From: Arbacia lixula
Taxonomy: Eukaryota > Echinodermata > Echinoidea > Arbacioida > Arbaciidae
Reading direction: 5' to 3'
DNA: 64,000 nucleotides
NCBI GenBank assembly: GCA_963669155.1
Contig: OZ022597.1
Span: 9,821,605-9,885,604, forward strand
The stretch's first letter is position 1. The number at the start of each line of letters is the position of its first letter. Positions 1 to 63,337 of the stretch are shown here, piece by piece. The notes under the pieces were generated by a model. That model saw only the letters and a program-made list of their open reading frames with translations, searched no databases and had not been told where the DNA came from. The translations under genes were made by a program, and so were the position numbers.

Positions 1-2054
1 AATTCTGGGTCAATTGATAAGAATCATATTCATTTCTCAATTTTTCACACAATGTAATTGGGGTATAGGCCTACTGCCAGAGTATCGATCAGCACACTAG
101 TGTCACTACTTAAAAAACTCTCTAGAAATTCTGAACAATGCCTCTTATAATGTGTGTAAAAATAGTGTTGCAATTCGCATTGATTTTCTGCATTGATACA
201 CGTTGAACTTGTTAATATTAATATTAATATTTTCACAAGTACATTTGAGCCTAAACAAATTTAGTACTGTTGTTGCCTAATTGTTACTGTTAGTGTTACT
301 GTGAATTAGAAAGAGACAGTGCCCACTGGCTAGTAATTCTGTGAATGAAATTTGAGCTATCCCTTTATTCGGGTTAAGATCACACTTGCATGTACATTTC
401 AGGGAGATGACGAGCTCTGTTTCGAGTCATCTTTCGTGCCTTCCCTGCATAGAAAATTTGTCAAAATTCATCAAAATGCAGTGAAGAAAATAATTGTACT
501 CACCAAGGCCATGCACCATGGCGTGAGCACACTGAATTATACCACTAGGCACTACGTAGCTAGTTCAGTGCATGAGCAGTGGCGAATTCTGCCTTCACAA
601 GTTCCGTTTCCTCTTATTCTCTGGACTTGACAACCCACCATCGATCATCTTCCATCATGGATCCAAACAACCACACCAGCTAAGAAGCACAAAAGCCGAC
701 TTTTGTCCAAAATTAGTAAATTTCCTGGAGTATAATATCACAAGCAGCTACAGTGAAAACGGATGCGAGCGTAGCGATCGTGCATGCATGTTATGCATGC
801 TACTTCCGCTCGCTTAGCTCTGTGCGTATAAATCGCTCACTCGCGGACAAAATATCGTCAGCTTGTATTTCAACAGCGAGAAATTGTGATCCTGCAAACT
901 TCATATTTGACTATCCTTATTTCAAATATCTCGCTTGTTATGAATATGTAGGCTGTCAGCTATGATTAATGACGAGAATGATTCCATATACAGTTCAAAA
1001 TTTAGACACTTCCATAATAGGTCTACTTTTGCTCCAAATATGCAAGTCAGATCTAGTATAGCCTATACCGAATACCCCCGCACACACCATTCGTTTCCAA
1101 TCCTAAACAAAAATATATTTCACGGTATAAAAAGAATATTGTGATTATATAACATGTTTCAATTATTTATTTATTAAAACTGAGTAAGAAGAAATCAAAT
1201 AGATTGACTCATAATAACAATATAAGCTCTGAAACAACTGTGTATTTACGTCGACTTTCTACACAACACATCACTCCCCATCACTTTCCCGACAAATGAA
1301 TGCATTACGTGACGTCATGTCAAAGGTACCGAATTCACTGCGTGAAAGTCGGCGATCAACGACTTCCAGATTCAGTAAAGTTTAATCAGTTATTGTAATA
1401 TTTTCATTTCGTTCTGTTGTATTTGAGTCTCATATCCATGTTAATTAGGTTGAAAGCTTTCTAATGATGTAAAGATCTCAATTTTTGTGATCGTGCTCTT
1501 ATGTCTTCTTTAAGAAAACATAATTGTTCTCCACATTTTCAGCGCCTTCGCAACCTCTAATATTGCTATTATATAAATGTATACTGCATATATAAAAATT
1601 TAAACAAAATATTTATCCAAGTGTGCTTTAAAATCGTGCAAAGGAGCCGGTCTCAAATATATCCTGCTATAGAGAAAGAAAAGCTTTGAATATGGTGAAA
1701 TGGACTTGATGTAATATAACCATGCTCGGTTTTGTATGTACTGTAAGTTTATTACAAATAAGAACGCTGTATTGAGTTATTTACCTCAATGAGAAAAACG
1801 CTAAATGGAGCAGCTGTCATAATTAGTAATAAACAACATCGCTCTAAATATTATAATCATTACTTTTATTAATATCATTAGTAAGAATAGTATAATTATG
1901 TAGTATAGGCTTTGTCGATAAATAATGTTTATTCTCATGAGATTTATCGTTATCATCATATTCATTGGCCGGTATTCTGAAGTCGGGTTTAACTAAGCCG
2001 GGACCAAAGTTAGAATCGAGTTTAGTTAGTCCTGGCCTAAACGCGACTTCGGGC
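1..2054. other. AT-rich non-coding stretch
   Basis: Only short open frames occur, none longer than about 90 codons, and none shows a recognisable domain or a convincing splice-site pair. The last 100 bases (about 1970-2054) contain spaced inverted words (gaagtcggg / cgacttcggg) abutting the TTAA where a MITE begins. I see nothing else. Confidence 0.6.
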
Positions 2055-2066
2055 TTAAAGACAGCC

Positions 2067-2210
2067 TGTTGCACCACAAATTGTCGTCCCTGCACAAATT
2101 GACGTCGACGACAATTTGTGCAGAACCCTGACACCACAAATTGTCGTCCCTGCACAAATTGACGTCGACGACAATTTGTGCAGGGGGCTGACACCACAAA
2201 TTGTCGTCCC
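2067..2210. repeat. Terminal inverted-word array of the foldback, left end
   Basis: The words caccacaaattgtcgtcc and gcacaaattgacgtcgacg alternate with their reverse complements, giving nested short hairpins. The mirror array is at 7590-7832. These are the outermost sequences of the foldback element and probably its subterminal transposase-binding repeats (inference). Confidence 0.65.
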
Positions 2211-2360
2211 CCCTCGAAACACTTTCAATATGACGTTGAAGCCTTCAAGGCCATTAGGGGCTTACATTTTTGTTAATATAATGATTCCTGACAAACATAA
2301 TACATGAAAATCAACACATAACTCAAGTGCACACAAACCAAAATAAAAGGTCACGTTAAA

Positions 2361-2735
2361 GTGTGTGTGTGTGTGTGTGTGTGTACGTGTGTGCGTGAGT
2401 GTGTGTGTTTGCGCGCGTGCATGTGTGAGTGTGTGCGTGAGTGGGTGTGTGTGTGAGTGTGTGCGTGCGGGTGTGTGTGTGTGCGTGTGTGTGAGTGTGT
2501 GTGTGTGTGTGTGCGTGCATGTGTGTGTGATTGTGTGTGTGTGTGTAATTGTGTGTGTGCGTGTGTGTGTGAGTGTGTGTGTGTGTGTGTGTGTGGGGGT
2601 GGGTGGGTGTATGTGTGTATGTGTGTGCGTATGTGTGTGGGTGTGTGTGTGGGTGGGTGCATGTGTGTGTGTATGTGTGTGTGTGTGTGTGTGTGTGCGT
2701 GTGTGTTGCGCGCGTGCTGGCGTATGGGCTAGGTT
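2361..2735. repeat. GT microsatellite
   Basis: A (GT)n tract of about 370 bp with scattered GC, GA and GG interruptions. Long open frames across it are low-complexity artefacts. It lies in the left arm of the foldback and pairs with the CA tract at 7391-7531. Confidence 0.95.
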
Positions 2736-3370
2736 GTTTGCGTGTGCGTGTGTTAGCGATGAGTGTTGAGCTGGTATGTATGTGTACGTGATAGGGATGT
2801 TGAGGTGGGTGTGTGCAATATATTATGTGTGCAAGTACGGAATATTACGTGTGGGTGCATGGTGATGGTGGTGGTTGTGTGATTGTGTGTGTGTGGAGGG
2901 GGGGGGGGGCGAGCGCGCGTGTATGTGTACATTGTGTAGATGTGAAGTCGTGTATTTGTGTTGAGGAATTAGCCAATGGGTTTTGCATCGCCCTCTGTTT
3001 CATTGTTCTAAAAATATAATAAAAATTACACAGTGACGATGGTCATCGGGGTTACTATATTGGTGTGATTACAAAAAAGAAATGTCATGATAGTGAATGT
3101 AATTATAAACAAATATCAAAATATGATCACCCTTATGATCGTGCCAATAAGGCAAAATGAAAATAATTGACAATGCTCTAGAGTAAAGACAGCGAGTCAG
3201 TTAAAGTCAAATTTCATTATCTCCTTCTAGGAATAATACGAAAGCAGGGGAAACAGTTTATGAATTGTTTGTTCTGGTATTGCCCCACTTTTATGTGTTA
3301 GAACTCAAAACTTGACTGTGTTAACTGTCTTTATTCTCTTAGAGCAGTATTTGTGTTAACTGCACGTACA

Positions 3371-3425
3371 CCCCCCACACACACATACACAAAAACACAC
3401 ACGCACACCACCATACAGACAGACA
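3371..3425. repeat. CA-rich simple repeat
   Basis: A short imperfect CACA tract within the left arm of the foldback, preceded by a run of C. Confidence 0.8.
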
Positions 3426-3649
3426 TCCACACCCATACACTTACCAACCCACACTAGTGGAGTGGATAAGGTGAATAATTGTGCACTTTTGTGTACAAGC
3501 ACCAAATTTGGCACACATGTTCAAAATCATATTTCGGACAATATTAGATATAGAGGTATCTCAAAATGTTTCCAGGGACACCTGGGTGCAGCCCCCAAAT
3601 TGCCACAGGGGCACTTATATGTTATTATCTTCTATTCGAAAACTCACGG

Positions 3650-4270
3650 CCGGACTTGAAAAAAAAACCTTGATAGGAATCATCCTTAGGCAATAGGTAC
3701 CTTACCTTTTTTTTCAAATGTGTGGTCGTAAATGGCAAGAAGGCCGGGGGATAGCCCCCAAACTCCCCTGGGGGCATTTTTATCTTATTTTGGGACATAT
3801 TCTCAAGAATAAATAACTGGATTTTAACCAAACTAGATAGGAATCATCCTGTGGTAATAGGGAACATTAGGTGTTAGATTTGGGGTACACAAGTGGCAAG
3901 GGGCTGGGGAAGGGGGGGGGGGTATCCCCCAAAACGCCCCAGGGGGAAGTTTTCTTTTATTTTTCTAATACTTTTTCTCAAGAATAAATAACTGGAACCA
4001 CCCTTAGGTATTAGGGACCTTAAGTTGTTAGAATGGGGGGACACAAATTGCAAGGAACTGGGAGGGGGTAGCCCCCCGCCAAAAAAATGCCTCCAGTTCC
4101 TCTTATTCTTTACTTTTTCAGAAGAATACATAATAAATAAAAAAGAAACGGTACCTAAGTTATCAAGATGATGCTATGCAAGTGGCGAGGGGGGGGGGGG
4201 GACAAATGCTCCCAGGGGGCAAAGTCCACTGGTTTTGTTACCTTTTCGCAAAGGTACATGACTGTCTTTT
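3650..4270. repeat. G-rich subrepeats, left foldback arm
   Basis: About four degenerate units of roughly 120-160 bp. Each contains 'aggaatcatccttaggtaatagg', 'ggcaaggggctgggg', a G homopolymer, a block ending 'cccccagggggc', and 'ttctcaagaataaataactgg'. The inverted counterpart lies at 5930-6660. The homopolymer G or C runs are part of these units. Confidence 0.75.
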
Positions 4271-5337
4271 AACCAAGTTGAAAGAAGTCACCTCGGAAAA
4301 GAGGACCTAATTAGGTTGTAAAAAGTGGATACATATCTAAAAATGAATGTTAGATTTCATCAAAACTCGACAGATTATTCTGACGCAATGGGAGAATTTG
4401 TTACAAATGGGGATCCCATCTGTCATGAACTAGCCACCCTCCCCCTTCTCCCTCGCCCACCACCTCAGAAATGCGCCTTGCGGTCCAAAATGTTAAGAAA
4501 AAAGGAGTGTTTTCTCAAATTTATCCAAACTGTGCAGTAACCAAGGATAATCTAACATACACATGTAGTCGCGTACTCATTTGATGAGGGGACAAGGAGG
4601 ACCCCCCCCCCCCACCCTCGAAATTAATATAGCGCCTTACATGTCAATTACTATCTTGTTTTCATGGGGGGGGGGGGGGACTTCGTTCACTCCCTCAGTG
4701 CATGTCTTAACTTTTTTCTTTCGTCCTGCTAACTTTTTTCGACAAGCACCAAATTTTGAACATATGTTTAAAATACTATCTGGAATGATATGAGATATCG
4801 TTTTGAGGCATTTAAAAATGTTATCAATTTCGCCATCCTTCAGTATCATGACATAATAATACTTATAAATGTTTTAAGACTCTTTTTATAACCATATATA
4901 AGATAGTTAGCAATGAACATGGTGAAAGAACAATCGGTAATGCTCAGAATATGAAAGAACAGTGGTGTAATTACTATTTCCATAGAAAATAACTATAATG
5001 GAAAATATAAACAAATTAAATGTAGTCAATCAGTTTTGAAGATGGCCACCACAATTTGAATAAACAAAACACAAATTGTCACATCACTCAATGGTGCATG
5101 ATAGTTGATTGTGAAAAGGCTAGATAGAATAGAAATCCGTAAAAAAATCAGTGTCAACGGGAAGATAAAATTGATGCGCTAATTACTTAACTAAGAAACA
5201 TAATGTTTGCTACATTAAGTGATGTAAATAAATGCTCTTTATTTATCTATTTTTTTGATAGATTCATGGTGACATTCTTTTCACACAATGCAATGTCATG
5301 TTCCTCTTCAGGAGCTGCTCATTCCATCATCTGTATA

Positions 5338-19815: not shown

Positions 19816-20160
19816 CTGTGGATCAGCCTCCTAACACTAGCAATGCTGAAATGAGTAGAGTTATCACTAAAGAAGGAGGGGAACTACACCTAGAAAGATA
19901 CGGAGTGAAAGTCATCATTCCCCCAAAAGCCGTCGAGTGGCCGGTAGAAGTCAGCATCAAACTCTTGACTGACACCAGCAAGCTTGATATTAGAGAAGGG
20001 GAAATAGTAACTACCTTTGGTGTGCAATGCAGTCCTGATGGTCAGACGTTCGAGAAACCGGTTTGCGTTATTCTTCCTCACTCTGCCGTCTTCACAAGAC
20101 CATCCAGTGTGCAAGCCGTATTGCACTATGTCAGTGAAAACAAACACGATCAAATCGAGG
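19816..20160 (+). CDS. Gene 1 ZU5 domain exon
   Basis: 115 codons, phase 1 in and out, with acceptor ttcattcaaag and donor gtaagc. After about 17 linker residues the ZU5 pattern begins: EGGELHLERYGVKVIIPPKA, then VEVSIKLL, FGVQCSPDGQTFEKPVCVIL and VLHYVSENKHD. ZU5 is the beta-sandwich shared by ZO-1, UNC5, ankyrin, PIDD1 and the FIIND of NLRP1/CARD8. The 'G-G-x-L, V-x-V-I-I-P-P-x-A, F-x-x-x-V-x-x-x-P-D-G-x-x-F-x-x-P-V' series is clear. The next exon, in the same phase, completes the domain and starts UPA, so this is a ZU5-UPA-Death protein and not a tight-junction protein. Confidence 0.88.
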
Positions 20161-20429
20161 GTAAGCCCATTTCCACTTTCTGCATTGCATGGATCAGAGA
20201 AAATATTATTATTTGTCTGTTTTGTAAGAAAAGGCTAATTTCAATGGTGCTCGATATCAGCGTCAGCACAATATAAAAAAAGATTGATATGAGAATAGTG
20301 GGATAATATGACAATATTTAAAAGAAAAAAAGTGATGTGATAGACTAGGTAGTGCGTCAAGGTCGCAAAAAAGTTACCAGCCATGTGCATACTGGACATT
20401 TAACGAAAATATAACCGTTTGAAGAAAGT

Positions 20430-21692
20430 TATTATATACTCTTCAATGTTTATATCACTCCTGTGTCAACTATAATTCGTAAGCACAATCTTTTCTATCT
20501 TATCTATGCCGATGATATTCAACTATATGATGCGTTTGATCCTCGTTCACCATCAAGTATGCAAGAAGTGTTAGAAAGAATTTCGTTATGTATTGCTGAA
20601 ATAAACACGTGGAAGACTTCAAATTTCCTCAAACTAAATGTTTCTAAAACTGAATTCACTATACTATGTCGGAAAAACCAATTCAATGAAAATCTATCCA
20701 ACGTAAAACTCAATGTATGTGATAATGAAATTGCACTATCCTATAAAGTTAAGAATCTTGGCATATGTATTGACTCGTGCTTTACACTCTCATCTCACGT
20801 CAGTAATACTGTACGTACCTGTAATTTCCATCTTAAGAATCTATGGCGCATTAGAAGATTTATCAATGAGAAAACTTGCCATCATGCAGTTAGGGCACTT
20901 GTACTTTCTCGACTTGACTATTGTAACAGTCTCTTTTCAGTTCTTTGTGTTAAAGATCAGAAAAAACTTCAGAGTGTTCAGAATCGTGCCGCACGTTTAG
21001 TGTTTTCAGTTGGTCGCAATATACATACGTCTCCTTTGATTAGGGAACTCCATTGGCTCCCTTTTTCTCAACGTGTCAAGTTCAAACTTTGTCTGTACAT
21101 TTATAAATTGATTAACAGTACTGGTCCTTCATATCTTGTAAACACAATTGCTCATTACACACCTGCTCGTAATCTACGTTCCCAAAATGATACCACCAAA
21201 CTTGTTATTCCGAGAACAAACCTCTCCATAGCAGAAAAACGTTTTATTATAGCTGGATCTAGAGTTTGGAATACACTCCCCTCTTCCATCCGAACAACAC
21301 CGACCATATCATCTTTCAAACGACAACTCAAGTCATATCTTTTTCCAAATATATAGTTTTATATTTTCATTTATTTAATGTGTATTTGTTTTGATGATTT
21401 TTGCTATCACTATTTGGTTTGACTTGGCTAACCCATCTGGGGCCTGGTGGCCTCAAGTGCTATACTAGAGCTTCTGTGAATAATGTGCTGACCGGGCTTG
21501 TCCCTTAAATTGTTGGTGAACGAAGCAGCAAGCAAGAGGCCACCAGGCCTCATCTGGCACAGTTGAGAACTCCAATGGTTGATGCAATTTAATGTATATA
21601 TTTATATTTTATATCTGATTGTAAGCGCTGTGATACTTTTTGTGTATAGCGCAGATAAATAACCATTATTATTATTATTATTATTATTATTA
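20430..21692 (+). mobile_element. 5'-truncated CR1/L2-type LINE in gene 1 intron
   Basis: One open frame from about 20439 to 21356 encodes the C-terminal half of a LINE reverse transcriptase: the YADD catalytic box, the LNVSKTEFTI block, LDYCNSLF, KLQSVQNRAARLV, LHWLPFSQRVKFK and a C-terminal TISSFKRQLKSYLF. These are typical of CR1/L2-group ORF2. About 310 bp of 3' UTR follow and end in an (ATT)n tail at 21664-21692. Fingers and endonuclease are absent, as in common 5' truncation. It is the same strand as gene 1, between the ZU5 and UPA exons. The frame is undamaged, so the insertion is fairly young. Confidence 0.88.
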
Positions 21693-34069: not shown

Positions 34070-34338
34070 AACGTAACCGACTCGATGAGAAGATATGCAA
34101 GTTGGCGAAACAGTTTCCTCCGGGAAAGTTTCCTGACCTTTGCTGTCATCCAGACGTCAAGATTGGCCACGACACACAAAGCCACATTCTCATCAGGCAC
34201 AACCAAGACTATGAGGCTGCTGTCAGAGATGTGCTGCATATATGGAAGAATAAGACGGAAGGTGCAAATGTAGAAGGTCTTAAACGTATTCTAAGAGATA
34301 TTGAGCTAGGTGGGCTGATTGATATCTTGAGGAATTAG
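34070..34338 (+). CDS. Gene 1 terminal Death domain exon
   Basis: Acceptor tttttcgttcag, phase 1 in, 88 codons then TAG at 34336-34338. It encodes RNRLDEKICKLAKQFPPGKF, then DLCCHPDVKIG, the helix AAVRDVLHIWKNKTEGANVE and GLKRILRDIELGGLIDILRN. The six-helix Death fold signature W-x-x-x-x-x-x-x-x-x-x-L-x-x-x-L-x-x-I/L is visible around the single Trp. Death domains at the C-terminus after ZU5-UPA recruit other Death-fold adaptors or RIP-like kinases in UNC5 and PIDD1. Phase 1 lets any array exon join directly. AATAAA signals follow at 35103 and nearby. Confidence 0.85.
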
Positions 34339-51129: not shown

Positions 51130-52820
51130 CTATCTTCATATCATCACAGTAAAATATGTGCTTAAAGAACTGAAGTTACTTAACTGTAATAAAGCTGTTG
51201 GAATCGATAAATTACACCCGAAACTATTGAAATTTGCTGCTGATTACATTGCGAGGCCATTAAGTTTCCTGTATAATGTATAATGAGATCCCCAATGACT
51301 TTACAATTGCAAAAATAATACCACTTTACAAAGGGAGAAGGGAATTACATATTAACAACTATCGTCAAATATCTTTATTGCCCATACCTGCAAAAATATT
51401 GGAAAGGGCTGTTCATGCACAACTTTATAAATACTTCATGAAAATTCTTTGTTCTCTTCTGTTCAATCAGGTTTTAGACCGATGCATTCAACTTAAACAT
51501 GTGTTACTGATATTTCAAAATATATTCTGCGTAATATGAATTCTGGTAATACTACTGGTGCAGTGTTTCTTGACTTGCGAAAAGTATTCGATGATTTTCT
51601 CATACTCGTCCTTAAAAAGAAACTATCGATGCATGGAACACGCAATTTTTAATTAGAATGGTTTAAATCTTATATTACTGATCGAGTGCATTGTTGTTCA
51701 ATAGAAAGAACATTAAGCAAGTACTAAAAGGTGAAATCTGGTGTTGCTCAAGGTTCGACCCTAGGAACCCTCATGTTCATTTTAGTCATTAATGACATAT
51801 GTAATTAAATGTTAGACGAATCCTGTAGATTACTTTATACGCAGATGACACAGTATATTTTGTACAGATGAAAATAAGCATGATGTTCAATTGAAACTCC
51901 AGTCACTATTTTGTAATGATCTAACTTTAAACTTGGAAAAGACGAACACTATGCCGTTTAGTTCAAACCATAAATCAACAGGTAAAAAGCTGTCAATAGT
52001 GTACAGAAATGATATCCTTGGGCACGTCAACGAATTAAAAAAAATGTTGGTGTTGCGTTCTTAATTGGACTTGTCACAGATATCACAAACAACTGGCTGC
52101 ATACGTAGAGTGAAGTGTTACCTTACAAAAGAAATAATGATAGTTCTATTTTATTCTCTTATTTTACCACACATTGATTTTTCTGGTACAGTATTGGGAA
52201 GCTGTGCCCAAACAAATATCTTGTGTATCCAACGATTGCAAAACAAAAATGGTTCTTGGCATGGATTTATTCAGATCGACAAGTTTTCCATTAAGCACTT
52301 TTAATTGACAATCAGTTAAATAAAGAATCCGGTATCAAGAAACGGCACTTGTACTCAAAATCATCCATGGGCAAGCTCCTTGTTACCTAAAGAATACAAC
52401 GCAGAGATGTTAACTATGCAACCCGTTACGCAACCAGCAACCCGTTATTTGTCTCCCACACCAAGAACTGAATACATGAAAAGATCAATCTGCTAATGTG
52501 GTAGTAAACTCTTTAACAGCCTCCCAATCACTGTTCACAGTTGTAATACTCAATACTCACAAAATTTAAATCAAAAGTGCGTCGTCTAAGCTACACCTGG
52601 ACACTGCATTTGTTCTAACTTTTTGGCCAATTGTGTTTGTCTTTGTTATTTTTATCTTCTATTAATAATGTTAATTGTATTTGAATGCTACCTATGTGGT
52701 TATGTTTACGTGATGATTATCACAGAGCTCCTTTGGAAAGCAGTCCTCGACGCTTAAAGGACTACCCAGTCTAAATAAAATGTGAAATAAATAAACAAAT
52801 CAATCAATCAATCAAATGCT
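51130..52820 (+). pseudogene. Degenerate LINE (CR1/jockey-like ORF2 remnant)
   Basis: Broken frames on the plus strand follow the RT order: ELKLLNCNKAVGIDKLHPKL, then IPLYKGRRELHINNYRQISL (finger motifs), GAVFLDLRKVFDDF near 51556 (motif A), SGVAQGSTLGTLMFIL near 51740 (motif B), ADDTVYF near 51841 (motif C), and later IDFSGTVLGSC..IQRLQNK. At least five frameshifts or stops separate them. The 3' end is AT-rich and closes with an (AATAAATC)n-type tail at 52785-52817. The motif order and tail indicate a non-LTR element; no intact protein. Confidence 0.8.
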
Positions 52821-54760: not shown

Positions 54761-55314
54761 GGGCCACGACAGCCGCCAGGATGCCTATTTCGCTTGGGGA
54801 GTGGCGTCTGCGCATAGGCAAATTCGTGCCGAGGAGGAGACGTGAAGAAATAAACTGGTCCAAGGTTGGAACAAACCTTGATAAAGCAACGCACTCTGAC
54901 GAGAAGACACCGTGCAGTGACGGTAATAGTGGTGATACCCCGTCATCAACTGAGACTCATACTTGCTCATCGTCGAGCTCTGCCACGACTACTGCACACG
55001 TCGATCCCTCGCACGCTGGTGAGGCAACGGGACTAGGACACCGCGGTGAGGGCAGTGCCTCGTCGTCGAGTACATCCACCGACATTACCAGTGCTGCAAA
55101 ACCTACCTACTCCTCACCCCAGCCGCAGGTGGTGGGGCATCCCGAGGGGTGTAGTCACTTACCCCGCTCTGCTGACGACATCCCGGAGAAGGCCGCGTCA
55201 TCTTTACAGGACGATGCCTCGGGAAATGTCCCGAAACCACAGTCCGGAGACTGTCTAGAAGATCAAATAGAGAAGTGTGGTGATCCCGATACGAAAGTGA
55301 CAGAGAAAACAGGG
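54761..55314 (+). CDS. Gene 2 exon: Ser/Thr-rich N-terminal region
   Basis: Acceptor gcgttcctcacag, donor gtaaga; phase 0 at its end. The first Met in frame is at 54781, giving 178 codons, but the frame is open back to the acceptor, so an upstream exon may exist and the start is uncertain. The N-terminus has MPISLGEWRLRIGKFVPRRR, a basic segment with a W-R-x-R-I-G core. It is followed by about 130 residues rich in Ser, Thr, Gly, His and Pro with no fold expected. GC content is clearly above the flanks, as expected for coding sequence. The next exon carries a 2A-like motif, so this segment would be released as a separate polypeptide. Confidence 0.7.
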
Positions 55315-55955: not shown

Positions 55956-56128
55956 GACGGCTCAAGGTGTGACACAAGCCATGATAGCACTGCTGAAAAG
56001 AGCAGGGAGGATCATTCGTCATATGACCTTACCTCGGAGCTAGAAGCGCCGCAGCTCAGTGTGAATATCACGCAGACATTGATTCTACAGTCGGGTGACG
56101 TAGAGCGGAATCCTGGCCCCATTGATCG
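55956..56128 (+). CDS. Gene 2 exon with 2A-like ribosome-skipping motif
   Basis: 173 bp, phase 0 in and phase 2 out, donor gtaggc. It encodes DGSRCDTSHDSTAEKSRED, an acidic stretch, then NITQTLILQSGDVERNPGP and ID. D-V-E-x-N-P-G-P is the complete 2A consensus. The preceding hydrophobic and Ser-Gly residues (LILQSG) fit the helix that acts in the ribosome exit tunnel. In known 2A sequences the ribosome fails to join Gly to Pro and continues, making two proteins from one frame. The break would follow residue 232 counted from Met54781. 2A-like sequences are known in sea urchin NLR genes and in some non-LTR retrotransposons. Here the motif lies in a spliced host exon upstream of a Death domain. 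Confidence 0.85.
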
Positions 56129-56937
56129 GTAGGCTTATTTTAATACTTGAAGTGGTGTTCATGATCGTGGTGTACTCTCCCGTCTTCCATTGCTGTATTT
56201 TACCTTTTGCTGTCCAGTCATGTGCATTGTCTTAGTACGCCATGTAGGTCAGGGCAGGTCTACCAGGTCTCCATTTCCATGTTTGGGTATATAATGAACT
56301 AGTTAAGATACGGGCCGGTAACTTTGTTGTATCACTTCGTTGTATTTTAAATTGGTAGTGCACCCTGAAAATACTTTTGCTTCAATAAAAGGAGACACAT
56401 GAAAAAAAAAATATTAGTGAAGGTTTGACGAAAATAAGTCAAAGGAAAAGACATTTTTTATTTGAATTTAAAGTATTGATTTTGTGACGCCACGTGCGAG
56501 GTGCTCTCCCATATGTTGTGTACAAATTGTTCTAAAATGTGCATTTTCTCAAAAGGATATTTTCCATTTCACCTGTGCGTTTGACATATCATTAGACACA
56601 TATTTTTTTTACACACACAGTTATGAAAACTATGTATTTCTTCATTTAAGAACATAAACAAGCAGTTTATGGAAAAAGTAGTACACATCATATGAGAGAG
56701 CATCTCACACGTGAATTCACAAAATCTAGATTTTAAAATCATAAAACTTTCCGCTTGAACGATTTTAATCAAACCTTCACTATCCTTTTTTGTGTCTCTT
56801 TTCCCTGAAACGCAAATAATTTCATGGTAATCAAAATATCTCTTTAAGGCTTGGGGGGGGGGGGGAGGGGGGAATTAGTTATGCAAGTTTAGTTCACAAG
56901 AGGGATGCAGAGCATTGTCTGTCGTATGGTAAATTGG

Positions 56938-57385
56938 TCTACAGTCATTTCGTCCAATGCCATTTTGTCCATCAACATTTCGTCTACCACCCATTTCGTC
57001 CAGTCATCATTTCGTCCAATAGCCATTTCGTCTATTCACCAGTTGGTCTATAACCAATTCGTCTACAACCATTTCGTCTACCAACCATTTGGTCTAACCC
57101 CATTTCGTCTAATGCCAAATCGTCCATTAATCAGTTCGTCCAACTTCACTTGGTCCAATAGCCATGTCGGCTAATTTCAGTTGGTCCAATATCCACATCG
57201 TCTACTTATCAACTCGTCCACTTCCCATTTCGTCTACTAATCATTTCGTCCATCAACCATTAGGTCCAATGATCAGTTCGTCTAACAACCAAATCGTCTA
57301 ATAACCATTTCGTCCATTTCCCAAATCGTCCAATACCCATTTCGTCTAATAGCCATTCGGTCCATTAGCCAGTTCGTCTACTGAT
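56938..57385. repeat. Minisatellite of about 17 bp (TTCGTC/TGGTC words), left array
   Basis: About 27 degenerate units of the form 'catttcgtccaatagc', varying ttcgtc with tggtc and cca with cta. The complementary array lies at 58612-59122, inverted. Confidence 0.9.
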
Positions 57386-58611
57386 ACAAATAGGAGGGGT
57401 GCGAAATTACTTTTATACCTTGAAATTATTGATGATAATGGTTAAAAAAAAATTATGATTGGCTCCCCCCCCCCTCTCTCTCTCTCTCTCTCACCCACTC
57501 ATACACACACACACTAAAAAAGATAAAACTGGACAGTTTAAGCACATTTTCAATAAAGAGCAAGGTATGTATGTATTGTGTACTCTGATACAAAACACAT
57601 GCTTTGGAGTCCAGATCGAGAGCATTCTTTATTCATCAAATTTTCTACATCAGCATAATATCTGTCTCAGGGTAGTATCCCTGGATATACATAGGAATGG
57701 CAGTGCATGTTGGTGGTCAAGCAGGTGGTCATTGTTTATATGAAGTCTGATGGATAGAGGTGGATAATAGTATACTGGGAATGGAGGTCAATAATGGGGG
57801 GTAATGGTCGTGGGGAGTTCGTGGAGATACGAGCGGATGAAAGTGATAGAGTGATGGAATGGGAGGATAGTTGGTGAAGAATGTAGTGTGTGTATGAACA
57901 CAATATGGCAGGATGGTATCTACTGAAAGAACTTATGCAAACTTAAATGACGAAATTCCGACACTACAAACTATAAGCACATTGTCAATAAAGAACAAGG
58001 TATGTACGTATCTCAATAAATCATATCTGCGAGTGCGGAGCGTGAGCTGAAATGATTTAATTTACTGTAATGGAACCTGCCATTTACCAATTCTCTTCCT
58101 CTCATTTTCGTCACTGTTCTTCCTTCCTGTTTCCCCTTCCTCTTCTTTATATTTTATTTCATGTCCTTCTTAATTTCGTCACCGCTCCCCCCCTTTTTTT
58201 AAGGGGGGGGGGGGGGGGGGGGCCTTCAAAAAAATGTTGAATCTAGGAGCCTGAAAGCAATTGCCTCTCTGTATTTTTTTTTCTCTCTCCCTTCTTTTTC
58301 TCTTCCCTGTAACTCTCCCTTCCTTCTTTCTCATCTTCCTTTATTCCTTCCATTTCCTTTATGTTTCTCTCAATATACCTTTCCTTTCCGTCCTTCCTTC
58401 CTCCCTTTTCCTTCTCCTTTTCTCTTTCCTTCTTTCTTTTCCTCACTCTCTCCTTCCCCTCTCTTTTTCTTTTTTTTCACTCGTTCCCCCTTATTTTCCC
58501 CTTCCTTTTCTTTTTCCTCTTCTCTTCCTTTATTTTCCTGAGACCACAAATCAGGAAAAGAGTCGAGTCGGCATGCACTACATGTGTACCAGAGAGGGCA
58601 CTATAGTGTCT
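57386..58611. other. Spacer between inverted minisatellites, with pyrimidine tract
   Basis: It includes a CT/CA simple tract (57467-57515) and a word 'caataaagagcaaggtatgta' variant at 57551 and 57990. A G run lies at 58202-58222 and a 270-bp C/T-rich tract at 58270-58540, where open frames are low-complexity artefacts. No gene seen. Confidence 0.6.
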
Positions 58612-59122
58612 ATTAGACAAATATGCTTATTAGACGAAATGAATATTAGACGAAATGAATATTAGACGAAATGGTGGATAGACGAAATGGCAATTGGACC
58701 AATTGGTCATTAGACCAAATGGCAATTAGACCAAATGATTGTTAGCCGAAATGGGTTTAGACCAAGTGATAATGGACCAAATGCAGATAGACCAAATGGA
58801 ACATGGACGAAATGAAAGTAGACCAAGTGGCTATTAGACCATTTGCCTTTAGACCAGTTGGCTATTGGACCAAATGGGGATAGACGAAATGATAGTGGAC
58901 GAAGTGGCTATTGGACCAATTGGCACGAAAATACCATTAGACCAAATGGTTATTTGACCAAATGATAATAGACGAAATGGCTATTAGACCAAATGGCTAT
59001 TAGACGAAATGGCTATTGGACGAAATGGTAATTGGACTATGTGGGTAGTGGACCAACTGATGGTAGACGAAATGACATTAGACCAAATGGCTATTAGACG
59101 AAATGGCATTGGACGAAATGGC
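58612..59122. repeat. Minisatellite of about 17 bp (GACGAAATGG words), right array
   Basis: About 30 degenerate units of 'attagacgaaatggct', alternating gacgaa with gaccaa. It is the reverse complement of the array at 56938-57385, so the pair with its spacer forms a 2.2-kb foldback structure like FB transposons, whose arms are also built of short subrepeats. Confidence 0.9.
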
Positions 59123-59139
59123 AATAAACCTGAATAATT

Positions 59140-59215
59140 AAATGACTGAGCTTCAACCAACCTTGAATTGTAGAGGGCAAGCTTTCGTCCTCTCCTGAGG
59201 ACTTTCTCAAGCCTA
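59140..59215 (-). ncRNA. Degenerate hammerhead-like segment in 3' pLTR
   Basis: On the minus strand the pLTR contains cttgagaaaGTCCTC, loop AGGA, GAGGAC, GAAAGC. The helix and GAAA match hammerhead stem II and core, but the first core half reads TTGAGAA where CTGANGA is needed, so cleavage is not expected. The same segment is repeated in the other pLTR at 61671-61746. Active hammerheads are known in the terminal repeats of Penelope-like elements. Confidence 0.35.
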
Positions 59216-61741
59216 ATGCAGTGGAGTGTTGTCTTGCTGCCGTTGCCTGTCTTTATTAATCACTGGACCATAGATTGGTGAAAGGGTATATCCCGAGTCT
59301 CTGTTGAGAGCTGGATTGACCCTTCTGATCCAAAGTGCTTCCTTTATTTTTCTTTTCAACCAGTTGCTTTCAAAGTCAATGATGCGCGCCTCATCCCATT
59401 TAATGTTGTGTCCTGTGTTGTGAGAGTGCTCAGCTATCGCCGATTGTGATGGATTGTTTAGTCTCAGTGCCCTTTTGTGTTCCTTGAGTCTCTCGTTCAA
59501 GGTTCTGCTGGTTTCCCCAATGTAACAATCATGGCAATCAGCACAAGTGATCTTATATACAATGCCTGATCTTATTTGCCTTGGGACTTTGTCTTTAGCA
59601 CGGACTAGTCTACTTCTCAGGGTATTAGAGCTCTTGAATGCAATGTCAATGTCCTTGTTGTGGAATGCTCTTTTCAGACGGGAGGATATGGTGTTTACGA
59701 AGGGGAGGACTACCCTAATGCTAGCCTCCTTTCTTTCCTTTGTGGGTGACTTAGTTCTTGTTCTGTCCTTGGCTTTTTGTCTCATCCAAGCTGGGTATCC
59801 ACATGCTGCAAGGGCCTTGTCAATATGGTGGAATTCACTCCGTAGTGCATCATTGTCAGAGGTTACATTTCGAGCTCTCAAATACAAAGATCTAGCAACT
59901 CCCTCCTTTGTGTTGAGTGGATGATCCGAGTCGAAGTTTAAATAGGAGTCAGTGTGGGTTGGTTTCCTGTACACAGTGATAGAAACTGAAAGGTCGTGGT
60001 TGACAGAGACCTTTGTGTCTAGGAAATTCAATGACCTTTGAACTTCTTGCTCAACAGTGAATTCAATATGTTGGTCTATACTATTGATGTACTTAGTGAA
60101 TTCGTCAATATGGTCTCTGTCAATGATAACAAAAGTGTCATCCACGTATCTCCACCAGATTCTAGGGGGGTGGGGGGCATTCGAAAAGATCTCTTCTTCC
60201 AGATGTTCTAGATACAAGTTACAAACGACCGGTGAGATAGGTGATCCCATAGGTGTTCCATGAGTTTGTTGATATAACTTGCCATTGTAAGTGAAGTAGG
60301 TATTTTCAAGACAAATACTCAACAGCTGACCAATTTCATTCGGGCTTAAACCTGTTCTATCATCAAGTGTTTGGTCTTCTTGTAGATGCTCTATCACAAT
60401 TTCCACAGCCCGTTTTACCGGAACACTTGTGAAAAGGGAACTGACATCATAGCTCACCAGTTTCTCATTGGCTGTAACTTTGCAAGATGTCACCTTCTCA
60501 ACAAAATCTGTTGTGTTCACAATATGTCTATCTGTGCGACCAACAATTGGTTGAATTATCTCAGCAAGGTGTTTGGCAAGATTATATGTGGCTGAGTCAA
60601 CAGAGGAGACAATAGGCCGCAGTGGAACGTTGACTTTGTGAATCTTGGGAAGACCATACAGTCTAGGGACAGTGCATGGGCACGAAACAGAAGGAGAGAC
60701 ACGATAATAAGTTTTCTCTTCGATATGACCTTTGTCCTTGAGCTCCCTCAAAGTTTTTGATAAGGAGGATTTCAACTTACTTGTGGGATCCCTCTTGAGA
60801 CTGGAGTAGGTATTGGTGTCCGAAAGTAATTGTTCCACTTTCTCTTGATAGTTAGACTTGTCCAAAATAACTGTAGCCCTTCCTTTGTCGGCTGGAAGAA
60901 TAATTAGATCTTTATCTTTTGCCAAACTGTTGAGTGCTGCATTTTCGGATCTAGAGACATTAGGTCTGGGGGGTTTAGCAGATTTCAAAATGCTGGCAAC
61001 CTCAGACCGAAGGTTGTTAGCCTCATTTACCGGTAATTTGTGACATACCTGTTCAGTACTTGCAATAATGTCATCGTATGGAATGGACGGGTGAGTGATA
61101 GCAAAGTTCAATCCCTTTTCAAGAACACGGGATTGCTCTTCACTTAGTGCCTTAGAGGATAGGTTCACGACAAGTCGCTGATCCCTGGTGTTGGTTTCGC
61201 GGGCGGTCGACTTCAACTTCCGCGTTCTTGATTCCAGAAGATGTAATTTCTTGATGTGTCGTTCCTTGGTCTTCAGAAAGGTACGCTCCTGTCTTGCTTT
61301 GCACTGGATCTCCAATTCCTTGTAGAGGTCTTGTGTGATGGTGTTTTTAAGTGATGAGGAAAGAAATTCAATGCTTTGATTTAATCCATGGATCTTGTTG
61401 TGTATTTCCTGGATACGCTGGTGAAGAAGTTTACGTTCAGTGTTCTTGATGAGTAGTTTACACGACGCGTTCTTGATGGGGCAACGTAGTTTCAAACTGG
61501 GAGGTGTTAAATCCAAGTCAAGACAACGATGTGTATACCGAAGATGGTTGCGGTAATTGGCGAGAGTGAGCAAGGTTTGTTCGTATTCCCTCGCTAGATG
61601 GAGGCCATCCAGGCCAAATAGTTCACGAATGATACTAAAAACTTTCATCGGCTGGGGATGATGAATAATTAAATGACTGAGCTTCAACCAACCTTGAATT
61701 GTAGAGGGCAAGCTTTCGTCCTCTCCTGAGGACTTTCTCAA
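59213..61741 (-). CDS. Penelope-type reverse transcriptase with GIY-YIG endonuclease
   Basis: 842 codons without interruption, within the usual 750-900 for these elements. The N-terminal third is basic and predicted helical (about 100-200). RT motifs follow: LPADKGRATVIL (282-293), RLYGLPKIHK (360-369), SYDVSSLFTSVP (430-441) with the first catalytic Asp, QTHGTPMGSPISP (492-504), YVDD (532-535) with the catalytic Asp pair, and the Penelope-specific YRKPTHTDSYLN (591-602). The C-terminal GIY-YIG nuclease has GIVY (726-729), CYIG (739-742), Arg746, His772/774/778 and Glu801, with CADC (733-736) plus the His residues as a likely zinc-binding set. The first 27 codons or so lie in the pLTR. All catalytic residues appear present, so the enzyme could be active. 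Confidence 0.93.
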   Translation of the reverse strand: MRKSSGEDESLPSTIQGWLKLSHLIIHHPQPMKVFSIIRELFGLDGLHLAREYEQTLLTLANYRNHLRYTHRCLDLDLTPPSLKLRCPIKNASCKLLIKNTERKLLHQRIQEIHNKIHGLNQSIEFLSSSLKNTITQDLYKELEIQCKARQERTFLKTKERHIKKLHLLESRTRKLKSTARETNTRDQRLVVNLSSKALSEEQSRVLEKGLNFAITHPSIPYDDIIASTEQVCHKLPVNEANNLRSEVASILKSAKPPRPNVSRSENAALNSLAKDKDLIILPADKGRATVILDKSNYQEKVEQLLSDTNTYSSLKRDPTSKLKSSLSKTLRELKDKGHIEEKTYYRVSPSVSCPCTVPRLYGLPKIHKVNVPLRPIVSSVDSATYNLAKHLAEIIQPIVGRTDRHIVNTTDFVEKVTSCKVTANEKLVSYDVSSLFTSVPVKRAVEIVIEHLQEDQTLDDRTGLSPNEIGQLLSICLENTYFTYNGKLYQQTHGTPMGSPISPVVCNLYLEHLEEEIFSNAPHPPRIWWRYVDDTFVIIDRDHIDEFTKYINSIDQHIEFTVEQEVQRSLNFLDTKVSVNHDLSVSITVYRKPTHTDSYLNFDSDHPLNTKEGVARSLYLRARNVTSDNDALRSEFHHIDKALAACGYPAWMRQKAKDRTRTKSPTKERKEASIRVVLPFVNTISSRLKRAFHNKDIDIAFKSSNTLRSRLVRAKDKVPRQIRSGIVYKITCADCHDCYIGETSRTLNERLKEHKRALRLNNPSQSAIAEHSHNTGHNIKWDEARIIDFESNWLKRKIKEALWIRRVNPALNRDSGYTLSPIYGPVINKDRQRQQDNTPLH

Positions 61742-61743
61742 GC

Positions 61744-62100
61744 CTAATGCAGTGGAGTGTTGTCTTGCTGCCGTTGCCTGTCTTTATTAATCACTGGACC
61801 ATAGATTGGTGAAAGGGTATATCCCGAGTCTCTGTTGAGAGCTGGATTGACCCTTCTGATCCAAAGTGCTTCCTTTATTTTTCTTTTCAACCAGTTGCTT
61901 TCAAAGTCAATGATGCGCGCCTCATCCCATTTAATGTTGTGTCCTGTGTTGTGAGAGTGCTCAGCTATCGCCGATTGTGATGGATTGTTTAGTCTCAGTG
62001 CCCTTTTGTGTTCCTTGAGTCTCTCGTTCAAGGTTCTGCTGGTTTCCCCAATGTAACAATCATGGCAATCAGCACAATAAACCTGTAGTATTGGGTGCAA
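61744..62100 (-). pseudogene. Partial upstream Penelope copy (GIY-YIG only)
   Basis: It encodes the last 112 residues of the neighbouring Penelope ORF without change, beginning at CADCHDCYIGET, and shares its stop codon position. It is the 5' pLTR of the element. The first eight codons of the open frame come from flanking DNA. With no RT it cannot act alone, but it supplies the sequence upstream of the main ORF, where promoter activity is expected in this class. Confidence 0.85.
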
Positions 62101-62420: not shown

Positions 62421-62641
62421 GGAGGTGTTGGAGTCTGTGGCTCGCAGTGTTCCATCGGACAAATTCAGCTCTTTGGCGGATGCATTGGGTTTCCAGAAAC
62501 ACGAAACAGCTCAATACCAGTCCAAGAACCGTGTGGCTGAGATGCTCACAGATTGGTCCAAGAGGACGACAGAGGGTGCTGCCTATGAGGAGTTGGTGAC
62601 TGCTCTGCAGAAGTGTGGACTACACGGAGTTCCAGGAACAA
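62421..62641 (+). CDS. Gene 2 Death domain exon
   Basis: 221 bp, acceptor ending cgcgtaatag, donor gtaaga. The exon enters in phase 2: CG from 56128 plus G rebuilds Arg. It reads VLESVARSVPSDKFSSLADA, then LGFQKHETAQYQSKNRVAEM and LTDWSKRTTEGAAYEELVTA, and LQKCGLHGVPGT. The pattern of six helices with L-x-x-V-A, W-x-x-L-A-x-x-L-G-F-like start and the conserved L-x-x-W before the last helices is a Death domain. Placed directly after a 2A motif, it would start near the N-terminus of the second product, as in NLR proteins with Death-NACHT-LRR order. NACHT is not in the window. Confidence 0.82.
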
Positions 62642-63275: not shown

Positions 63276-63337
63276 CAAAGAGCGCGAGAGTTCATGAAGA
63301 TGAGGGCTTAGAGGATTTCGCCTCTAATCTAACACAG
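63276..63337 (+). CDS. Gene 2 exon after the Death domain (partial gene)
   Basis: Acceptor tctcattacag, donor gtacag. 62 bp, phase 1 in and phase 0 out, encoding KSARVHEDEGLEDFASNLTQ after a split Thr codon. Acidic linker without a known domain. The gene continues beyond the window. Confidence 0.6.

Follow-up and report, generated by a model that had tools for sequence, protein, structure and literature searches.

The stretch of Arbacia lixula DNA analysed here (64,000 nucleotides, hereafter the window; C22:9821605-9885604 of the 607 Mb genome) probably carries an NLR-type family gene in which skipping at a 2A (StopGo) sequence separates a 232-residue protein, named here the EWR protein after a motif in its N-terminal tip, from a Death domain product. 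Judged from its predicted splicing, the locus would be the 5' part of a multi-exon gene of this family.

Gene model around the 2A exon

The exon at 55956-56128 (+) carries LILQSGDVERNPGP and reads in its own frame as DGSRCDTSHDSTAEKSREDHSSYDLTSELEAPQLSVNITQTLILQSGDVERNPGPID followed by two bases. Its open frame exactly fills the space between the splice sites, running from a phase-0 acceptor (tctTAG|GAC, 55956) to a TAG just beyond a phase-2 donor (CG|GTAGGC at 56129). An 18-codon 2A-like (StopGo) peptide ending in GDVERNPG|P is encoded at 56067-56120 (+), as assigned from its motif and a chance estimate. The full 2A consensus match SGDVERNPGP that the initial annotation reported for this exon was located at 56091-56120; its further statement that the exon ends with this match is correct as to a position near the 3' end, but eight more nucleotides (Ile, Asp and two bases of Arg) precede the donor, and the open frame stops three codons past NPGP, at the splice donor.

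Exon 1 begins with a short untranslated leader (54761-54780, +) directly preceded by the acceptor cctcacag|GGG, which implies an untranslated exon further upstream; this acceptor lies in the top 0.16% of 3164 AGs, and the ATG context is GCCAGGATG. The coding part of exon 1 (54781-55314, +) comprises 178 Ser/Thr-rich codons up to a phase-0 donor (GGG|GTAAGA), a structure shared with the tandem copy L012 and with paralogues. The conserved N-terminal tip contains the motif EWRxRIxxF (MPISLGEWRLRIGKF), encoded at 54799-54825 (+) and found by a genome pattern match (C22:9876403-9876429) and in an alignment of 11 chosen N-termini. Downstream of the 2A exon, the Death domain exon (62421-62641, +) has a phase-2 acceptor and a phase-1 donor (ACAA|GTAAGA) and matches Pfam Death, while a putative fourth exon (TKSARVHEDEGLEDFASNLTQ; 63276-63337, +) has a phase-1 acceptor, is open in phase and has a counterpart in the tandem copy.

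The exon phases are established and fit at every predicted join, with phase 0 between exon 1 and the 2A exon, phase 2 between the 2A and Death exons, and phase 1 between the Death exon and the fourth exon; the 0/0 and 2/2 pairs agree with the earlier proposal that splicing places the 2A just ahead of the Death exon. Omission of the 2A exon from the predicted mRNA would shift the frame. The first three exons would encode 309 residues, predicted to be divided into a Ser/Thr-rich product and a Death domain protein starting with Pro-Ile-Asp-Arg; the spliced model thus reproduces the two products put forward in the initial annotation, one of about 232 residues (232 as computed) and one beginning with Pro. 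Acceptors were scored with consensus weights, and by this measure the acceptor of the Death exon was only in the top 19.5% of window AGs, whereas the other three were in the top 0.13-2.7%. An alternative in-frame AG upstream of the Death exon would add about 16 residues and would leave the conclusion unchanged.

Intron 2 of the window gene is 6,292 bases long. It contains a transposon ORF on the opposite strand (59213-61783, -), which is not part of the gene, with reverse transcriptase (Pfam RVT_1, 6.1e-10) and GIY-YIG (0.001, below its cut-off), and which we take to be a Penelope-like element; its C-terminal end is present twice, also at 61744-62100 (-). The same intron holds two minisatellites (56946-57378 and 58610-59122) with units (CATTTCGTCTA and TAGACGAAATG) of about 15-16 bases, one nearly the reverse complement of the other. 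Elsewhere in the window, truncated LINE-type reverse transcriptase fragments were observed at 20415-21356 and 51440-51823 (+). A ZU5 domain exon at 19854-20099 (+, 2.2e-14) is followed 14 kb on by a Death-like stretch at 34195-34335 (+), just below the Pfam cut-off, and the two perhaps form one ZU5-Death gene upstream of the 2A gene; the AlphaFold model of the Death-like stretch (34075-34335) had a pLDDT of 45.9 and was too poor for use.

The Death domain and the downstream part of the gene

The spliced protein matched Pfam Death (PF00531) at 2.9e-8 and 34.1 bits (cut-off 22.6), with the match stopping at profile position 77 of 86. A single-sequence AlphaFold model of the Death exon (pLDDT 82.7) contained five helices of at least four residues, and the best Foldseek matches were the Death domains of TNFR1, ankyrin G, FADD and p75NTR, with none of 61 at E ≤ 0.001. 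A phmmer search of the PDB with this exon gave no match at E 10 or less, and no relative emerged from scans of viral contigs in which the Death exon and part of exon 1 served as queries. In the predicted spliced model, the Death domain lies directly downstream of the 2A.

Neither the window gene nor its tandem copy had a NACHT in the genome family search, which gives lower bounds, and two paralogue NACHTs used as tblastn queries (E 1) found nothing in the window, in the 30 kb beyond it or in 30 kb at the tandem copy. The Pfam read-through of frames covered the plus strand from position 4001, with the minus strand and positions 1-4000 covered by single ORFs. Since NACHT, a defining NLR feature, was looked for and not found, we do not call the window gene an NLR; it is a NACHT-less relative, which may be decayed or specialised. 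Both tandem copies have a repeated LRR-like exon unit beyond the Death exon (L009:5809-6084; L010:3635-3910 and 4505-4780; L013:3806-7151; L014:5495-5770); two tested units had no Pfam match, and some copies contain stops.

The tandem copy L012 lies 129 kb upstream and has the four exons in the same phases with no stop across the joins. Its intron between the 2A and Death exons is 1,567 bases long, and the middle of window intron 2, the Penelope-like stretch, had no match in L012 over 150 bases. The Death exon is 96% identical between the two, and the putative fourth exon is 85% identical over 20 residues in the same phase. Exon 1 differs by six replacement changes and one silent change, and no differences occur in exon 2 as far as NPGP; from the 6:1 changes in exon 1, no purifying selection is evident on the short branch between the window gene and L012.

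We consider it unlikely that this NLR-family locus has become a non-functional pseudogene, even though the searches of the window, the 30 kb beyond it and the tandem copy found no NACHT nearby, intron 2 has received a Penelope-like insertion, some of the downstream LRR-like exon copies have stops, and replacement changes outnumber silent ones in the comparison with the tandem copy. Against this reading, both the window gene and the tandem copy have all four 5' exons open and in phase.

The 2A motif and the EWR protein across the genome

For our preferred reading, that of an NLR-type family gene yielding two proteins by 2A skipping, the motif itself is established. NPGP occurs once in the six frames of the window, and under a first-order model built on the composition of the window the core D[VI]ExNPGP is expected 3e-5 times on both strands, or 9e-10 times once the hydrophobic-[SAC]G upstream context is added; a chance origin is excluded. 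The core D[V/I]ExNPGP that defines StopGo/2A sequences is present, the upstream context LILQSG is hydrophobic and L-rich with [ASC]G before Asp, as described for StopGo, and the 2A stands in frame between two coding regions in the predicted spliced model. On the strength of its canonical core and L-rich, SG-ending context, we assign the motif to the LLLLSG-like class, which shows a strong preference for Gly before Asp (PMC12846837).

It has been reported that activity depends strongly on upstream context, and the Gln in LILQSG and the Arg at the variable core position stand where the most frequent forms have Leu and Ser (PMC12846837), which would fit a transcribed 2A with weak or absent skipping and a fusion of EWR tail and Death domain as the main product. 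We regard this as improbable. GDVERNPGP appears among the 2A-like sequences tabulated for two viruses, although with no activity stated there (PMC8623073), and the C19 and C22 paralogues retain LLLQAGDVERNPGP. In a full-text literature search, DVERNPGP occurred in two papers. Tests of a single representative of each of motifs 1, 3, 4 and 6 gave from 92.7% to nearly 100% separation (PMC12846837), and skipping at a sea urchin NLR 2A was put at about 80% in a qualitative estimate (PMC4981915). We infer that skipping at the window 2A would be high, perhaps incomplete.

Across the 607 Mb genome we found 74 D[VI]ExNPGP sites (63 D-V and 11 D-I; none in backward controls), against about 0.3 expected when the window rate is scaled to the genome. 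Because sites were collected by way of the core, its conservation is partly built in, which does not hold for the flanking context or the EWR-based count. A Death and/or NACHT match lay within 30 kb downstream on the same strand at 48 of the 74 sites (NACHT at 46, Death at 39; opposite-strand control 0 in each case), although same-strand clustering of genes makes this control lenient and a few 30 kb pairings may reach a neighbouring gene. The matches used, at least 78 NACHT (all above cut-off) and at least 87 Death, are lower bounds; in control genomes the NACHT profile had matches in 11 of 14, three above cut-off, and the Death profile in 0 of 14. Death and NACHT were both present within 30 kb at 29 of 29 2A sites in C17 (18.0-21.0 Mb). 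The cluster there (L015, L016, L017, L046) includes near-identical copies about 6 kb apart, with an orientation flip near 20.5 Mb.

Six of the 26 sites with neither domain match were still classed as gene-like, three with an EWR exon upstream and three in a C12 cluster (1.06-1.75 Mb), one fetched member of which (L019) has a Death match; together with the 48 sites above this makes 54 gene-like sites. A good phase-2 donor follows soon after NPGP in 24 of the 25 gene-like 2A exons examined (of 54), at +8 nt in 17 cases, +17 in four, and +2, +14 and +35 once each, the 25th (L037) having only a poor phase-2 GT. The core D[VI]ExNPGP was present at the 24 other gene-like sites examined with a variable upstream context, and the phases of both introns were kept in the subfamilies examined. 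We regard family membership as established at the level of sequence, where the window 2A belongs to a family of 2A-Death-NACHT (NLR) genes of the kind reported in sea urchin. The initial annotation had suggested a search for the same exon order, and this order recurs within the genome itself: in the tandem copy, as Death then NACHT downstream of 37 of the 74 2A sites, and as EWR exon, 2A, Death and NACHT in order at 27 loci (limits of 22 + 30 kb), 15 of them within 6 + 8 kb.

The typical long first exon begins M-P-[IV]-x-x-x-E-W-R-x-R-I-x-x-F. The pattern E-W-[RS]-x-[RS]-I-x-x-F occurs at 34 places in the genome (backward control 0), each followed by a same-strand 2A no more than 22 kb away, a limit chosen after one distance of 21.4 kb had been seen, and in 31 cases within 6 kb (opposite-strand control 0); 29 of the 34 are followed by a NACHT match within 60 kb. 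Two of the matches (C17:19349255 and C17:20028920) read E-W-S, not E-W-R. A looser pattern anchored at the start codon gave 37 matches (backward control 1), 34 followed by a 2A and three away from any. The residues M1, E7, W8, R9, I12 and F15 are common to the 11 chosen N-termini. In five between-subfamily pairs, dN was lower over the first 50 columns of exon 1 (0.32-0.65) than over its remainder (0.99-1.97), and lower in the last 20 codons, the 2A (0.20-0.36), than in the 2A exon before these (0.60-1.02). This conservation pattern is established for ten aligned genes, in which the linker has diverged more than the tip and the 2A on either side of it; the contrast is smaller within the C19/C22 group. 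dS is mostly saturated, with 0.43 in the last 20 codons for two pairs, and a dN/dS of about 0.47 in these codons (C17 against C19 or C22) indicates only moderate constraint.

The released 232-residue protein would be polar (16% Ser, 10% Thr), and its Ser/Thr-rich tail is probably disordered; its most hydrophobic 19-residue segment reaches 0.43, and none in the first 40 residues rises above 0. In another subfamily (L049 and L051, C12), the EWR exon continues not with Ser/Thr-rich sequence but with a very basic stretch rich in Arg/Lys. The exon 1 product of L018 matched no Pfam family at E 0.1, the EWR tip gave eight weak phmmer matches in the PDB (best E 0.5), EWRARIG was absent in a full-text literature search, and topical searches returned no title or abstract opening on such an N-terminal module among the matches listed. 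The earlier suggestion that the released peptide could have a role of its own gains some support, as its tip is common to divergent subfamilies and the peptide has no signal-like stretch. We judge that the EWR protein would most likely be made together with the receptor as its partner or regulator.

Short, very hydrophobic 2A exons similar to the signal-sequence type of sea urchin were also observed, at L027 (C22:4.21 Mb) and L033 (C10:0.46 Mb). At L027, 30 Leu-rich residues precede DVETNPGP, a phase-2 donor follows, and a NACHT match lies 2.7 kb downstream with a putative Death-like ORF between it and the 2A. The signal-sequence role reported for sea urchin NLRs (PMC4981915), together with these two N-terminal exons ahead of NACHT matches in the same genome, raised the question of a similar role in the window gene, by which an unskipped product would be secretory and a skipped one cytosolic. 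We rejected this role as highly improbable, given the low hydrophobicity noted above and the 232 residues ahead of the skipping point; over 15 residues, the 2A exon reaches 0.57, against 3.28 in L027.

Among the remaining 20 sites, ten were viewed in sequence, and eight of these (L001, L002, L003, L004, L006, L007, L041, L043) run into Cys-rich stretches like those of L023 or L001; we take these as probable LINEs, L002 alone having been domain-tested, as the longer fetch L023, where a 1,111-codon open frame contains endonuclease (3.6e-10) and reverse transcriptase (7.8e-35) matches downstream of the 2A. Two sites (L038, L042) were assigned to neither the gene-like nor the LINE set. That the window 2A and exon 1 are a 5' remnant of a non-LTR retrotransposon lying by chance upstream of the Death exon is scarcely credible despite L023 and the LINE fragments in the window, since the open frame ends at a splice donor, both intron phases are constant in the subfamilies examined, and the genome distribution of the EWR motif, in copy number and in its setting ahead of a 2A and mostly also of a NACHT match, is unlike that of a LINE and led us to reject a LINE origin of exon 1.

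Proposed mechanism and comparison with known systems

We propose that exon 1 and most of exon 2 would be translated into the 232-residue protein, consisting of the tip MP[IV]xxxEWRxRIxxF, a variable Ser/Thr-rich tail and the 2A end. At NPG|P, no Gly-Pro bond is predicted to form, so that the ribosome would release this first protein and go on to make a second one, starting with Pro-Ile-Asp-Arg and continuing into the Death domain, which in many relatives is followed by NACHT. A minor unskipped fusion may also be made. The likely purpose would be to provide one separate EWR protein per receptor mRNA together with a free N-terminus for the Death domain. Extended to the family, this would mean that dozens of NLR-type genes make two proteins per mRNA, a Death(-NACHT) receptor and an EWR protein, as a built-in pair of receptor and partner. 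The short signal-like 2A of other NACHT genes in this genome would then put the skipping site to another use, and the window gene would be a NACHT-less member that has kept the pairing; we give this wider picture an even chance of being right.

Natural StopGo use in cellular genes is described as rare (PMC12846837). The genome studied here has 2A sequences at 48 loci with Death and/or NACHT, many of which are predicted to separate a receptor from a conserved, undescribed protein. If this is true, the output of receptor and partner would be locked in step, and the effect of skipping efficiency on immune signalling would be directly testable. The presence of long-upstream and short signal-like 2A designs in one genome also allows the question of conversion of one into the other to be asked. 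Rao 2025 is reportedly a survey of cellular proteomes and may include members of the 2A-Death-NACHT family.

The window motif resembles viral StopGo/2A sequences in its core, (D/G/C/N)(V/I)ExNPGP, and in the LLLLSG-like motif upstream (PMC12846837), but it is found in an animal gene, in a coding region split by introns and with a Death domain downstream. The same core and L-rich context occur in 2A-bearing non-LTR retrotransposons, including L023 in the same genome; there, however, the 2A lies inside a long endonuclease/RT ORF, whereas the window 2A lies in a short spliced exon. Among Death domain proteins (PF00531), the window exon scores above the curated cut-off, with five modelled helices compared to the six-helix bundle. 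In Strongylocentrotus purpuratus, 85 of 241 NLRs carry a 2A (Roulston 2016, PMC4981915), likewise placed N-terminally in Death-NACHT receptors that belong to a large immune family. The 2As characterised there are 26-residue N-terminal sequences, 12 of 14 being predicted signal sequences, in contrast to the 232-residue polar protein with an EWR tip in the window gene, for which no NACHT was found; since some S. purpuratus 2As are described as 'within the N-terminal region', longer ones may exist there too (PMC4981915). As far as the literature could be searched, both the long EWR protein and its link with a 2A are new.
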